Positions 40,784-46,492 of a stretch of DNA of 64,000 bases are shown one piece after another. The position numbers were made by a program, and so were the translations under genes. Origin of the DNA: Pseudomonas sp. Choline-02u-1 (GTDB lineage Bacteria > Pseudomonadota > Gammaproteobacteria > Pseudomonadales > Pseudomonadaceae). The notes under the pieces are model-generated. The model made no database searches and had not been told where the DNA came from. It worked only from the letters and a program-made list of their open reading frames with translations. Each line of letters begins with the position of its first letter. Position 1 is the first letter of the stretch. Location of the stretch: contig NZ_PJBC01000062.1 of assembly GCF_002836515.1 (NCBI RefSeq), forward strand, positions 62,001 to 126,000, in the 5' to 3' direction.

Positions 40784-42475
40784 ATGCAGGATGCAACCCT
40801 TCTCCGCCCGGCCTTGCTGGGCATCGACCTTGGTACCACCAACAGCCTGATCGCCGTCTGGCGTGAGGGCCGCGCTGAACTGATCGCCAACGCCCTCGGC
40901 GACGTACTGACACCGTCGGTGGTCAGTCTCGATGAAGACGATACGATTCTGGTCGGCAAAGCCGCCCGCGCCCGCCTGACCACGCACCCGGAACGCACCA
41001 CTGCCGCGTTCAAGCGCTTCATGGGCAGCGACCGACAAATCCAGCTCGGCACACGCCGGTTCAGCCCGGAAGAATTGTCGGCGCTGGTGCTTGGCTCACT
41101 CAAGCAGGACGCGGAAGCGTTTCTAGGCCAACCGGTTACAGAAGCGGTCATTTCCGTACCGGCGTATTTCAGTGACGAACAGCGCAAGCGCACCTTGTTC
41201 GCCGCCGAACTGGCCGGGCTGTCCGTGACGCGCCTGATCAATGAGCCGACCGCTGCCGCCATGGCGTACGGCCTGCACGAGCAGAAATTCGAACGCACGC
41301 TGATTTTCGACCTCGGCGGCGGCACATTCGACGTCACCGTGCTCGAATACGCGCTGCCGTTGATCGAAGTGCATGCCTCCACTGGCGACAACTTTCTCGG
41401 CGGCGAGGATTTCACTGCCGCCCTGCTGCAGGCCTGCCTGAAACACTGGCAACTCACACCTTCATCGATCGATGCGCAAGCCATGGCCAGTCTCGGTGAT
41501 GCGCTGGAACAGCTGAAATGCAAACTCGGTGAAGGCGCGCAGCAGTTGAGCTGGCGCCACGCCGAGCGAACGTTCGAATGGGAACTGGATGAAGCCGCTG
41601 CGGTGAAGATCTGGGAGCCGTTGCTGGCCCGCTTGCGCGCACCCATCGAACAGGCCTTGCGCGATGCCCGACTGAAACCACGCGACCTCGACAGCCTCGT
41701 GCTGGTCGGTGGCGCCACGCGCATGCCGGCGGTGCAGCAGATGGTTGCCACGCTGTTCGGACGCCTACCTTATCGGCATCTCGACCCGGACACCATTGTG
41801 GCGCTGGGCGCGGCGACGCAGGCGGCATGCAAGGCGCGGGACGGTGCGGTTGAAGAACTGATCCTGACGGATGTCTGCCCCTATACGCTGGGGATTGAAA
41901 CCATGCGCGGCAAGGATATCGACGGAGCATTTTCGCCAATCATTGAGCGCAACACTATTATTCCAACCTCCAGAGTCGAGCGTTACTACACCACTCATCC
42001 TCGACAAACGGTGATCCGGATTGCGGTTTATCAGGGGGAAAGACCATGGGTGCGTGACAACATTCTGATCGATACTTTCGATGTCACCTTGACGCCCAGC
42101 GAAGAGATACAAGCGTTGGACGTGCGCTTCAGCTATGACATTAACGGCCTGCTTGAAGTCGACGTAACCCTGCTCAATACCGGCGAACGCCACAGCCATA
42201 GCATCGATCGCAGTCCCACTGGGCTGGACGAGCAGGCTCGGCAGGCCAGTCACAACCGTCTTTCGACATTGAAGGTGCATCCGCGCGACGCCCTGCCCAA
42301 CCGTACCTTGCTGGCACGACTGGAACGGGCATGGATGCAGAGTCTGGGCAGCCAGCGCGAGCAAATTGCCGAATGGCTGGACAGCTTCACTACCGTGCTC
42401 GGCGGCCAGCAATCTGCAGAGATCGCCAGCCACCGCTCAGCGCTGAACAATGCGCTGGATCAACTGCGTCTTTAG
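40784..42475 (+). CDS. hscC: Hsp70-family chaperone HscC
   Basis: A 563-residue Hsp70 relative. The ATPase domain has GIDLGTTNS (residues 13-21), INEPTAAAMAYG, DLGGGTFDVTV and LVGGATRMPAVQ. The substrate-binding domain is present but the C-terminal lid is short, matching HscC (about 556 residues) rather than DnaK. It overlaps the end of a convergent J-domain gene by 4 bases, and a DUF1266 gene follows. This hscC, djlC-like and DUF1266 grouping also occurs in Escherichia coli, so the three probably work together. Confidence 0.92.
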   Translation: MQDATLLRPALLGIDLGTTNSLIAVWREGRAELIANALGDVLTPSVVSLDEDDTILVGKAARARLTTHPERTTAAFKRFMGSDRQIQLGTRRFSPEELSALVLGSLKQDAEAFLGQPVTEAVISVPAYFSDEQRKRTLFAAELAGLSVTRLINEPTAAAMAYGLHEQKFERTLIFDLGGGTFDVTVLEYALPLIEVHASTGDNFLGGEDFTAALLQACLKHWQLTPSSIDAQAMASLGDALEQLKCKLGEGAQQLSWRHAERTFEWELDEAAAVKIWEPLLARLRAPIEQALRDARLKPRDLDSLVLVGGATRMPAVQQMVATLFGRLPYRHLDPDTIVALGAATQAACKARDGAVEELILTDVCPYTLGIETMRGKDIDGAFSPIIERNTIIPTSRVERYYTTHPRQTVIRIAVYQGERPWVRDNILIDTFDVTLTPSEEIQALDVRFSYDINGLLEVDVTLLNTGERHSHSIDRSPTGLDEQARQASHNRLSTLKVHPRDALPNRTLLARLERAWMQSLGSQREQIAEWLDSFTTVLGGQQSAEIASHRSALNNALDQLRL

Positions 42476-45165
42476 CCGTTCAGTCGCCGTAAAGCGGCCT
42501 GCAGCCCGCCGGACAACACGTGTTCCCCGCTGTCCGGCGGCACGCCATAGCGATTGGGCAACTTGTCTCCAGCGAAACCGAACAACACCAGCGGCAGGAA
42601 TGGCAGAAACGGCGTCAGCCCAAGCATTATCAGCAGCGTGGGAATGCCACGGCCCATATCATGCAATCGCCGTAGAACCGCCGCAAACAACAGCAGCGCG
42701 CCGAGTAACATGATGACGATCCCGCCAATCGTTGTGCCCGTTATCAGCCCGGCGATTGGCGTTAGCACGACACACCCCAAGACCTGTGCGATAAAAGCCT
42801 TGCGCCCCAACCGTGTTCCGAGGCGCCAGAAAGCCCTGGCCGGTACTGGCTGAACATCACCGCTGGCCAACAATAAACGCTCCGACCATGACAGCAACGC
42901 GCACAGTGCCAAGCGCAAGCCGACGCTGTTCTGCACGTCATCCTTACCCTGCTGCAGTTGCCGTAACACTCGCGTTTTCGGTACACCGGCGGCGCCGTAA
43001 CGAATCAAACCCTTGAGCGCATCCAGCGCTTCATAAGCCAACAGTTTGTCGACACCGAAATCCGTCAACACTTTGCGCGGTGGCCACACCGGTTCGCCCT
43101 TGATCAGACCGTCGCGAAAGCCTTCAAACCAGTCATCCTCACAGCTGACCGCTGCAATCGATTGCAATAACGTCCGGTGTTGCTCGGCGCTCAGGCCTGG
43201 ATCGTGGTAAAGCACGCTCCAGAACATCAACAAGCCCAGCAGATCGTCGCCGCACGCCGCTCGGTCACTTTCGACGCAGGTGTAAAGCAGTGTATTGGCG
43301 GGCAGCCTGGCGCTGTCGAGGGCCTGTTCGACACTGAAGAGTTGTTGCACCAGCAAACCGTGTACCGGATCGTCGCCCTGCAACCAGCCCAGCAAACCGG
43401 CGCAATTACCCTGCTCACGCAGCAAGCGCCGCAATAGTGGCTGCAGCCGACTCAAGGGATGCGCAGGATTGAACGACAAGCGTTCCAGGCACTGCGCATC
43501 AATCAATTGCAACCAGCGCTCCGGTTGCTCCAGCAATGCCAGCAAAAACGCGGTTTGAGCGTGCCAATCCCAGATCGCCGCGCCTAACCCGATCGGCGGT
43601 AACCCCGTCGCGCGACGACTCAGTTGGAGCATCAGATCGAGCTCTGTCAGGTCATTGCCGTCTTTGACTGCACGCAGTTCGAACGCGTCCGCAATGCGCG
43701 CGAGCGCGGTGTCGCTGTAGGGTCGCAAGCGCTGCAACCACAGCCGACAAACCTTGTGCAGTTCGCCTTCGGACAACGCCGACGGCCATTGCGGTGAGAG
43801 TGCCCGCGAGTCAGTGAAAGCGCTCATGGCCTGCGCTACAGGCGCACTCTCCAACCAGCGCAGATGTTGCCGAGCCTGATACTTGAACTCGCTCAACACC
43901 AGGCGTTCCAGCGCGTCAACAGGGAGCGGTTCGTCGACAAGCTGCTGCAACAAGGCCGAATCACCGCGGTGCAGCGCCCAGGCGTGCCGGTACAGACGCA
44001 GCAAACGGCTGTCGTGGTGCTCGCCGAGTAATTGCGCGAGCAATGGCAGCTCATCGCCCACCATCCGCCAGTCAACAAAGCTACGCGCCAGTCCATCAAG
44101 CGTGAGCCGCCCGACACCCAACCAGCGAGTCAACGTCTCGGGGCGTTGTGACGGACTGCCAAACACCTGGCACTCATCGCCCAGATCATCCGACCAACCG
44201 GGGCAGTCTTCCAGGCGGTCGAAGGCCTGAATCAGCAACGGTAGAAAGGTCGGCTGACGCTTGGCGCACAGCTCCAGCAAACGATTTTCGGCCATGGGAT
44301 GACGATGTTCGCTCCAAAGCCGAATCCAGCATGTAAACGCTTGATCGTCGCGTCCCGACAAGCTGTATTGACACGCCAGCAGGTACAGCCAGTCGACGTT
44401 ATCCGGCGCGGCATCGTGTTGTTCGACACAACGGTGCAAGAACGTCGGGGTGCCAATCCCCGCTTGGGTGAACTGCACCAGCAAACGCTTGAGGTAGGCG
44501 GCATCATTGGGCAACGGCACGCACGTGTGCCGCGTGACAAAATCGGCAAACTCATGCAGGGGTCGGTGGGTGAAGATGTAGTCAAGGCTGCGGGCATACC
44601 ACAGCGATTCGGTCTGTGCTGGCTCTGGCCATGTACTCATCAGATCCGTATCAAAGGGGTCAGGCGTCTTGATGCGCTGCAAAAAGGTTTCTACCGCTTG
44701 CGCGTCATGGAATCCCAGAGCCAGCAGTTGCTGGTCCCAGGCCATGCGTTGCGCCAACAGATTCGCGCAACGGTAGGACAACGGACCGGCGTCGGCCATT
44801 CGGTGATACAAGCCCCAACTCAGATCATCGAGCACTTCCAGCGACAAGTCGTCGAGGCTGCGGACGAATGTTTCCCATGCCGCGAAGTGGAACCGGCGAG
44901 CGGGATCATCCAGCAACGCACAGAAATCCACGAACGCCCGCGGAACCTCAACAACATTGGCTTGTGCAGCGTCAATCTCGTCTTCGGCCTCTTCCTCCTC
45001 CCCTTCACGCGCCAGACGCAGGGCGTTTTCATAGGCCATGCGTAGCGCCTGAAACCCTTCCGGGTCGCTTTCCGGATGGTGCGCCGGCAGACGGGCGCGG
45101 TAGGCGGTGCGAATCAGGGTTTCGTCGGTAGTCGGCTCTATGCCCAGTCGAATCCAGCAACTCAT
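42472..45165 (-). CDS. DjlC-like J-domain protein with C-terminal DUF805-like membrane region
   Basis: An 897-residue likely co-chaperone of HscC. Residues 3-45 look like a J domain (CWIRLGIEPTTDETLIRTAY, then GFQALRMAYENAL), but the central HPD is HPE (HHPESDPEGF). A long helical, leucine-rich middle follows, with no recognised domain. At about residues 770-890 there are several membrane helices with RKAFIAQVLG, RRLHDMGRG and LPNRYG, like DUF805 proteins. It ends convergent with hscC and starts 4 bases inside the DUF1266 gene's stop, so those two are coupled. Confidence 0.8.
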   Translation of the reverse strand: MSCWIRLGIEPTTDETLIRTAYRARLPAHHPESDPEGFQALRMAYENALRLAREGEEEEAEDEIDAAQANVVEVPRAFVDFCALLDDPARRFHFAAWETFVRSLDDLSLEVLDDLSWGLYHRMADAGPLSYRCANLLAQRMAWDQQLLALGFHDAQAVETFLQRIKTPDPFDTDLMSTWPEPAQTESLWYARSLDYIFTHRPLHEFADFVTRHTCVPLPNDAAYLKRLLVQFTQAGIGTPTFLHRCVEQHDAAPDNVDWLYLLACQYSLSGRDDQAFTCWIRLWSEHRHPMAENRLLELCAKRQPTFLPLLIQAFDRLEDCPGWSDDLGDECQVFGSPSQRPETLTRWLGVGRLTLDGLARSFVDWRMVGDELPLLAQLLGEHHDSRLLRLYRHAWALHRGDSALLQQLVDEPLPVDALERLVLSEFKYQARQHLRWLESAPVAQAMSAFTDSRALSPQWPSALSEGELHKVCRLWLQRLRPYSDTALARIADAFELRAVKDGNDLTELDLMLQLSRRATGLPPIGLGAAIWDWHAQTAFLLALLEQPERWLQLIDAQCLERLSFNPAHPLSRLQPLLRRLLREQGNCAGLLGWLQGDDPVHGLLVQQLFSVEQALDSARLPANTLLYTCVESDRAACGDDLLGLLMFWSVLYHDPGLSAEQHRTLLQSIAAVSCEDDWFEGFRDGLIKGEPVWPPRKVLTDFGVDKLLAYEALDALKGLIRYGAAGVPKTRVLRQLQQGKDDVQNSVGLRLALCALLSWSERLLLASGDVQPVPARAFWRLGTRLGRKAFIAQVLGCVVLTPIAGLITGTTIGGIVIMLLGALLLFAAVLRRLHDMGRGIPTLLIMLGLTPFLPFLPLVLFGFAGDKLPNRYGVPPDSGEHVLSGGLQAALRRLNG

Positions 45166-45857
45166 GACCAGTCGAACTCCCCAAGCGATGCCGGACGAGG
45201 CGGCGCATCAATGTCCATGTGCCAAGGCAGATCGGCGAGAAAGTGTGGAATGTTCTGCGCAAGCCCACGAGCAATCCTGGTGTTGAAAGCGCTGGCGCCC
45301 TCGCGACTCATCTCGACCGCCAGTTCATCATCGCTTTTGCTCAAGCAGCACCAGAAGGTTCGCCCTATCAGAAAGCCGCTGAAATAAGCCATCCAGTTGC
45401 CGTAATGAAACTGTGCCCTCAATGCCAATCGACTGTGCAACCAGTTGCTCTCGGCCAGATCGATCCATTGATTACGCACTGCGCAGCGCAGCAGAAATCC
45501 CATGCGGCCATAATCCCAGGACAGGATACCGCCGGGACCACAGCTGGCGAAGGTACGACTGGCAAACTCATGGAGGACACGTTCACGCGGACTGAGATCT
45601 TCGAGCAACGCTTGCCATTCACTCGGCAAACAACGCTGCCATGCCCAATAGGCCGAACTGAGGTGTTTGGCATGACCGTCGTCAGTCATCCGCTCGAGCA
45701 TGTCGAACAATTGCTGCCGATCATCGATTCCCCAACTCTCTTTGAGGTCGATATAACGGTCGTCGCAGAACGCAGGGTCGTCATACCCGGCGCCGGTGTT
45801 GAGCGCGGCCATCGGTGCGGACAAGGCGCACAGCCAGCGCTGTTTGATTTCGTCCAT
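45162..45857 (-). CDS. DUF1266 family protein (YbeU/YbeR-like)
   Basis: A 231-residue soluble protein of the DUF1266 type. The core includes WGIDDRQQLFDMLERMTDDGH and LSWDYGRMGFLLRCAVRNQW, ending WMAYFSGFLIGRTFW. The open frame continues to a GTG at 45965, inside the ibpA terminator region. I chose the ATG at 45857, which has GGAG 9 bases upstream and gives the usual length of about 235. Its stop overlaps the J-domain gene start. The function is unknown. Its linkage to hscC and a djlC-like gene is shared with E. coli. Confidence 0.8.
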   Translation of the reverse strand: MDEIKQRWLCALSAPMAALNTGAGYDDPAFCDDRYIDLKESWGIDDRQQLFDMLERMTDDGHAKHLSSAYWAWQRCLPSEWQALLEDLSPRERVLHEFASRTFASCGPGGILSWDYGRMGFLLRCAVRNQWIDLAESNWLHSRLALRAQFHYGNWMAYFSGFLIGRTFWCCLSKSDDELAVEMSREGASAFNTRIARGLAQNIPHFLADLPWHMDIDAPPRPASLGEFDWS

Positions 45858-45970
45858 GAACAAAGGCTCCAGGCCGACTGCCGGAAAATGGGGGTCGGCA
45901 AAATTGTGCAGATTGTAAAGAGCCCCGACAGCAGCAGCAAACGCCGCATCGCTTTTTCTGCGCACACAAA

Positions 45971-46045: not shown

Positions 46046-46492
46046 TCAATGCTGCAACGCCGGTTGCTGCGCTCCATTGATCGGGATGCGCTTGGCTTTC
46101 GCTTCTTCCGGGACCACACGCAGCAGATCGATGCTCAGCAGGCCGTTGCGCAGTGCAGCGTCCTTGATCTCGATGTGATCGGCCAGACGGAACGACAGCT
46201 TGAAGGCTCGCTGAGCGATGCCCTGGTGCAAGAACGTGACGCTCTCGTCAGTGTCGCGCTTGCCGCCACTGATGGTCAGCACACCCTTTTCGACTTGCAG
46301 GTCCAGGTCTTCTTCCTGGAAACCGGCGGCCGCAACGACGATACGGTATTGGTCATCACCGTGTTTTTCGACGTTGTAAGGTGGGTAGCTGCTGCCTGGC
46401 TCGTTACGCAGCGCAGTTTCGAACAGATCGTTGAAACGGTCGAAACCTACCGAGGAACGGAACAGTGGCGCGAGAGAAAATGCAGTACTCAT
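46046..46492 (-). CDS. ibpA: Small heat shock protein (Hsp20/IbpA)
   Basis: A 148-residue alpha-crystallin-type chaperone that holds unfolding proteins for the DnaK system. The N-terminus (MSTAFSLAPLFRSSVGFDRF) is that of IbpA. The crystallin domain runs from about residue 38 to 128 and includes YRIVVAAAGFQEEDLDL and ALRNGLLSIDL. The C-terminal I-x-I motif is IPI. The upstream region has a sigma-32 promoter and a ROSE-type leader, both annotated separately, so heat controls both its transcription and its translation. Confidence 0.94.
   Translation of the reverse strand: MSTAFSLAPLFRSSVGFDRFNDLFETALRNEPGSSYPPYNVEKHGDDQYRIVVAAAGFQEEDLDLQVEKGVLTISGGKRDTDESVTFLHQGIAQRAFKLSFRLADHIEIKDAALRNGLLSIDLLRVVPEEAKAKRIPINGAQQPALQH

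Follow-up and report, generated by a model that had tools for sequence, protein, structure and literature searches.

The locus raises the question of whether an HPE triad, found where the HPD triad of J domains is expected, marks an impaired contact between one J-domain protein and its Hsp70 or is the normal state of a larger family. The window analyzed here is the whole stretch of 64,000 nucleotides from Pseudomonas sp. Choline-02u-1, in which hscC faces a djlC-like gene adjoined by a DUF1266 gene. The initial annotation of this DNA had compared the trio with that of E. coli, had noted HPE and several C-terminal membrane helices in the J-domain protein, and had taken the triad as a sign of an unusual or altered J-Hsp70 contact. 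The features of the locus, in window coordinates, are as follows.

40784-42475, + strand: hscC, a specialized Hsp70 of 563 aa (Pfam HSP70, 417 bits)
42472-42475: stop codons of the convergent hscC and djlC genes, overlapping tail-to-tail with four bases in common
42472-45165, - strand: djlC-like gene for a J-domain membrane protein of 897 aa, with placement and orientation kept in 26/26 Pseudomonas loci
42544-42816, - strand: DUF805 membrane tail, DjlC residues 784-874 (Pfam 30.6 bits, cut-off 25.7)
42856-44940, - strand: all-helical middle region, residues ~76-770, with helices in pairs in the AlphaFold2 model
44995-45165, - strand: J domain, residues 1-57 (sub-threshold Pfam DnaJ match, home-made J profile, and AlphaFold2 model)
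45070-45078, - strand: HPE triad replacing HPD, residues 30-32, invariant in 27/27 Pseudomonas DjlC
45162-45165, - strand: ATGA, in which the DUF1266 stop codon and the djlC start codon overlap
45162-45857, - strand: DUF1266 gene of the ybeU/ybeR family, 231 aa (Pfam DUF1266, 110.6 bits)
45912-45917, - strand: TACAAT, a -10-like element 5' of the DUF1266-djlC pair, present in the window and in loci L006-L031

All 26 of the other Pseudomonas loci compared (L006-L031, retrieved with DjlC as the query) have the order hscC-djlC-DUF1266, and the trio is therefore not a chance grouping. The ATGA junction between the DUF1266 gene and djlC is identical in all of these loci, and judging from the sequence, translation of djlC is probably coupled to that of the DUF1266 gene through this overlap. 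The window locus is the HscC-DjlC-DUF1266 system, the Pseudomonas counterpart of the E. coli ybeU-djlC-hscC cluster, as the initial annotation had recognized; it belongs to a known system, and its tail is unusual. Between TACAAT and the Shine-Dalgarno sequence of the DUF1266 gene lies an inverted repeat, GCCGAC ... GTCGGC (45873-45899, - strand). Of the 19 Pseudomonas leaders aligned, 16 have it unchanged; it differs by one base in L021 and is altered in L024 and L027. This repeat could possibly form a leader hairpin regulating the DUF1266-djlC pair. Immediately 5' of the DUF1266 gene, beyond a terminator-like hairpin with a T run, an HSP20 gene is positioned at 46046-46492 (- strand). HSP20 adjoins in 25 of the 26 loci L006-L031 and also in L093 and L094, and was not found in the remaining 16 convergent loci searched.

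The DUF1266 protein cleared its Pfam cut-off of 27 bits with a score of 110.6, in a scan that began at a longer frame start, and was the single DUF1266 match in the window's genome. Its structural model was fair (pLDDT 77.3); Foldseek found no fold relatives at E<=0.001, and the sequence search of the PDB gave a sole match at E=0.62. The linkage to hscC was evaluated in two genome collections. Among 149 Pseudomonas genomes, the hscC type of the window was detected in 29 (E below 1e-260), and the same collection contained 40 DUF1266 matches, of which the 29 scoring at least 86 bits belonged to exactly the 29 genomes with this hscC type, all within ~3.1 kb of hscC; the remaining 11 scored at most 77 bits and were located elsewhere. 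Among 398 Pseudomonadota genomes, the convergent type was present in four (G000, G190, G334, and G374), each with DUF1266 adjoining hscC, and the co-directional locus G207 also carried DUF1266 beside hscC; the other DUF1266 matches in this collection had no HscC alongside at the threshold used. The initial annotation had named routine unlinking of the three genes as evidence against its proposal; in Pseudomonas, the trio is linked in 29/29 genomes. DUF1266 is a conserved partner, as the initial annotation had it. Two DUF1266 domains in a single frame of 765-967 aa were observed in G046, G050, G086, G308, G314, G354, G383, and G395, which represent one family of the same order and in which no HscC was found at the threshold used.

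The J domain of the window protein falls under the cut-off of Pfam PF00226 (14.7 vs. 27.8 bits, E=0.034), and the AlphaFold2 model, weak in this part (block pLDDT 43-70), places its helices at residues 2-6, 15-25, and 35-57. The J homology of DjlC is sound because its relatives match PF00226 more clearly: E. coli DjlB with E=3.3e-4, the relative at L067 with 30.1 bits, over the cut-off, and 45 of 61 partner proteins with E<=0.01. Lack of J similarity in a profile search, named initially as a ground for refutation, was thus encountered in part, for the sub-threshold domain of the window itself, and was offset by these clearer relatives. The N-terminal J domain of DjlC carries HPE, and PF00226 has four matches elsewhere in the window's genome, each with HPD.

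Downstream of the J domain, the middle region gave a weak match to Pfam TPR_20 (E=0.06). A Foldseek search with the DjlC model returned 718 matches at E<=10 and none at E<=0.001; the best of them, all above that threshold, were mostly helical-repeat proteins, TPR proteins included. As the AlphaFold2 model is weak (mean pLDDT 63.8, pTM 0.36), client binding by this region is a guess. The DUF805 tail contains three hydrophobic segments in a crude hydropathy scan, in agreement with the membrane helices noted earlier. DUF805 was detected in 15 of 61 partner proteins (E<=0.01) and was checked singly in seven convergent loci (the window, L027, L066, L067, L068, L097, and L146), with the scores of L067 and L146 falling under the cut-off; other partner tails matched TonB_C (2/61) or Sel1 (1/61). 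The crude scan predicted hydrophobic segments, chiefly in the C-terminal half, in 57 of 60 partner proteins; the exceptions were L069, L153, and the protein of L091, which stops at its contig end. Membrane anchoring therefore looks like a family rule, with the type of tail varying. In the Asp-first J protein of L075 (7235-8620, - strand), TonB_C is present at the C-terminus with 69.4 bits, an arrangement suggesting that a J domain in the cytosol is connected, through the membrane, with a TonB-like part in the periplasm. The Asp-first J protein of L069 (7036-8766, - strand) has a TonB_C match of 20.4 bits, under the cut-off, and no predicted hydrophobic segment.

The J triads were surveyed in 117 regions, comprising the window, L005, L006-L031, and L066-L154. 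To make the search independent of the J motif, the query was HscC, except for L005 and L006-L031, which were found with DjlC. Three DnaK-like regions (L083 and L084, with HPD, and L085) were set aside, leaving 114 HscC-clade loci. The J profile, although started from HPE and HPD domains before iteration, still recovered triads without H, P, or acid. A J-like gene adjoins hscC in 112 of the 114 loci; of the two misses, L090 has its upstream frame truncated where the contig ends, and L134 has a frame disrupted close to the J domain. HPD was found in none of the 112 partner J domains, which carry HPE (46), RPD (51), other x-P-E triads (7), or Asp-first triads (8). Type I consists of the 45 convergent loci, E. 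coli and Erwinia included, all with HPE and all with DUF1266. The alignment of DjlB/DjlC homologues proposed by the initial annotation hence makes HPE the norm of the family, and the triad is no peculiarity of this locus. Type II consists of 67 co-directional loci, in which the J frame abuts or overlaps the hscC frame, with the J gene upstream in L089, and in which DUF1266 was present once (L081). Their triads are RPD (51), RPE (3), GPE (2), HPE, KPE, and NPE (1 each), and the eight Asp-first forms DQQ, DPQ, DQG, DPA, DVD, DVE, DQV, and DIE. They come from Pseudomonas, Rahnella, Duffyella, Pantoea, Variovorax, Eleftheria, Rhizobium, Paracoccus, and others.

As to the make-up of this sample, one HscC search gave 36 rows, of which the window and 20 others entered the set; the other 15 (E 1.8e-95 to 9.6e-91, 38-42% identity) were left out of the long-flank set and were taken as DnaK-like by analogy with three examined rows near that score range. 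Another HscC search gave nine rows, seven of which were fetched and two of which were already in the set. The Pseudomonas HscC search gave 75 rows, 56 of which entered the set; the remainder comprised 14 with the hscC type of the window and five of the second class. The genus Pseudomonas contributed 41 of the 67 type II loci, the same species may recur across loci of different collections, and every locus with a name or placement is from Pseudomonadota. Six further J-like frames were present in the fetched flanks, namely, E. coli djlC, four type II copies, and one canonical HPD frame (L080). The second J-like frame near hscC in the type II Pseudomonas loci L117, L123, L133, and L139 carries RPD in three and RLD in L139. 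Near the DnaK-like gene of genome G057, a 108-aa frame (L085:7438-7761, + strand) has a J-like domain with a PPE triad.

In a 71-row tree, HscC formed one clade against DnaK with 100/100 support, with the window HscC inside. Type I, represented by 17 of its 45 loci, formed one clade with E. coli (100/100), and type II, whose deep branching is tentative, showed several long branches. The first triad position changed at least 10 times on the tree, and the acid at the third position was lost once; the Asp-first state accounts for four changes, at least two of them forced by well-supported branches. The arginine of RPD is written with five codons across the 51 loci (CGC 22, CGG 15, CGT 7, CGA 6, and AGA 1) and is therefore held by selection; both aspartate codons are in use for the last residue, and the glutamate of HPE in type I is encoded by GAA in 23 loci and GAG in 22. 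Crude pairwise dN/dS of the J domain (dS 0.2-1.5) had a median of 0.26 for RPD (508 pairs) and 0.13 for HPE (619 pairs). By these measures, selection acts on the triads of both classes. In DnaJ numbering, L10, Y25, and L50 are kept in 112/112 J domains, L29 in 111/112, R51 and F47 in 106/112 each, and the acid at position 35 in 107/112, and the six loop residues 39-44 are missing from all 112.

The HscC side of the contact was compared with the DnaK-DnaJ structure, in which H33 contacts the backbone of L391, P34 contacts P419, and D35 contacts R167 and Q378, and D211 and D477 of DnaK are among the acidic anchors for DnaJ (PMC8215388, in part). R167, Q378, P419, and D393 (DnaK numbers) are unchanged in 45/45 type I HscC, and P419 and D393 are retained in 112/112 and Q378 in 108/112 HscC overall. 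A reading of HPE as the mark of an impaired contact is not supported, given the kept R167, Q378, and P419 and the stimulation of HscC ATPase by E. coli DjlC (PMC8215388, in part). R167 is kept in 46/46 HPE loci, gives way to K in 36/51 RPD loci, and to T in a single Asp-first locus. All 112 HscC have S or T for D477 and T for L392; the D211 loop is missing from HscC but likewise from three DnaK-like rows and is therefore not diagnostic here. Residue 391 is M in 7/8 Asp-first, L in 46/46 HPE, and L in 48/51 RPD loci. Covariation of the triad with residue 391 was rejected, with two to four independent pairs on the tree, no significance, and a pattern inseparable from shared ancestry, and so was R167K as compensation for H33R, for which two to three independent pairs were available, none favoring it. 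The D481 clamp is N in 45/45 type I HscC. Loss of this clamp as the change that let HPD relax was also rejected, as alignments place N there in both BiP and the 2v7y DnaK, and Hsp70s bearing this N cooperate with HPD proteins. Where DnaK has G at position 328, type I HscC has R in 45/45, and the RPD class has R or K in 48/51.

It is quite probable that the locus encodes a membrane DjlC platform that recruits HscC, with DUF1266 as a partner, in a family whose sampled J partners lack HPD. DjlC would be held in the inner membrane by its DUF805 tail, and its cytosolic HPE J domain would dock on the nucleotide-binding domain and linker of HscC and trigger ATP hydrolysis in Pseudomonas. The helical part of DjlC would then present clients, most likely segments of membrane proteins, for HscC to grip. 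Synthesis of the DUF1266 protein would keep pace with that of DjlC, of which it is probably an adaptor or partner. At the family level, one class would have fixed HPE and the other, mostly RPD, would have drifted further with HscC keeping most of the receiving pocket; the RPD and Asp-first J domains would presumably be active as well. The wider proposition that a whole Hsp70 branch runs without HPD, J activation needing no histidine and sometimes neither proline nor acid, is tentative, its chances being slightly short of even.

The altered triads, chiefly those outside the HPE class, could instead dock without triggering hydrolysis, acting as tethers or brakes like Pam16 (DKE) next to Pam18, with HscC cycling alone or with a distant canonical J protein. 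The resemblance of the Asp-first triads (8/112) to Pam16 DKE (PMC13254874, in part) speaks for such a role, as does the loss of stimulation on changing H to Q or D to N of HPD in all systems tested (PMC8215388, in part). However, HPE-bearing E. coli DjlC stimulates HscC, for which DnaJ, CbpA, and HscB fail (PMC8215388, in part), the acid at position 35 was lost only once on the tree, and a canonical HPD J gene is present beside the counted one at L080 only, in flanks that are short and unequal; this joint reading is regarded as rather unlikely. Variable triads, weak Pfam J scores, and the J reading frame broken in L134 might also be taken to indicate J-like domains in decay, the genes being retained for their membrane parts alone. 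This is very unlikely, as L10, Y25, and L50 are invariant, the same loop is missing in 112/112, and RPD in 51 loci shows five arginine and both aspartate codons with a median dN/dS of 0.26, whereas the tails (DUF805, TonB_C, and Sel1) are what varies.

That the three genes are merely neighbors without a joint function is hardly credible. HSP20 and GGDEF/EAL genes likewise adjoin in 25 of the 26 loci L006-L031, as mere neighbors might, but a search of 18 further convergent loci recovered HSP20 in two and a GGDEF gene in three (at least 84% identity), with L066 as a fourth GGDEF case at a 38% match. In contrast, djlC and DUF1266 accompany hscC in 45/45 convergent loci, E. coli and Erwinia included, and E. 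coli genetics ties hscC to djlB/djlC (PMC8215388, in part).

HPE of E. coli DjlB and DjlC is already in print, and the wider result, that HscC partners lack HPD, concerns loci outside the window. According to a 2026 review, no replacement of HPD other than HPE is tolerated (PMC13254874, in part), which makes the RPD class a testable anomaly. HPD-less HscC partners as a group and the RPD class were not found in the literature searched, which included the consulted parts of PMC8215388 and PMC13254874, and priority is uncertain. HPD is treated as an indispensable feature of J proteins, yet 66 of 112 HscC-linked J domains are without the triad histidine, and they occur where the J domains look constrained and HscC keeps most of the contact (P419 in 112/112 and Q378 in 108/112). 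The HscC-J pairs are natural test material for the role of HPD and for the non-interchangeability of DjlC and DnaJ, and the window locus supplies Pseudomonas genes for studying DUF1266. On a plasmid of Pseudomonas oryzihabitans (L148, 1-7689), an operon for copper resistance, with its two-component regulator, precedes a type II hscC-J pair; this placement, a single case, fits a metal-stress role.

Compared with the window, the second HscC class likewise has an HscC-clade Hsp70 and an adjoining short-loop J protein, mostly with predicted membrane segments, but differs in the co-directional hscC and J gene, in other triads and tails, and in the absence of DUF1266 from 66/67 loci. The mitochondrial Pam16-Pam18 pair is similar in that the Asp-first triad of eight type II partners resembles Pam16 DKE (PMC13254874, in part); it differs in that no canonical J gene was found in the fetched flanks of the Asp-first HscC genes. 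With DnaK-DnaJ, the locus shares the general Hsp70/J-domain machine and the R167, Q378, and P419 of type I HscC, whereas HPD is replaced, the D477 anchor is S/T in 112/112 HscC, and the J loop is six residues shorter.

The closest likeness is to the E. coli cluster of ybeR-djlB, ybeU-djlC, and hscC, which has an HscC-clade Hsp70, HPE in the J domains of both DjlB and DjlC (L005), a DUF1266 gene overlapping djlC by 4 nt, and hscC convergent on djlC. The window HscC is ~57% identical to E. coli HscC, and its 563 aa are inside the 550-580 aa range of the HscC subfamily (PMC8215388, in part). According to the same source, in part, E. coli HscC is without the GrpE signature and does not use GrpE, its ATPase is stimulated by DjlC and not by DnaJ, CbpA, or HscB, DjlC resides in the plasma membrane, and loss of hscC, or of djlB and djlC together, leads to Cd2+ sensitivity (PMC8215388). 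The E. coli cluster differs in having two DUF1266-djl pairs against one in the window, and its DjlC has 483 aa against 897 aa for the window protein, with ~32% identity across residues 2-316. Pfam found no DUF805 match in either DjlB or DjlC of E. coli, and the crude scan showed a single hydrophobic segment at the C-terminus of DjlB, in contrast to the multi-helix DUF805 tail. The single C-terminal tail anchor of E. coli DjlB/C is thus not shared by the window protein, which is still membrane-anchored by prediction and is therefore a DjlC with a different anchor.
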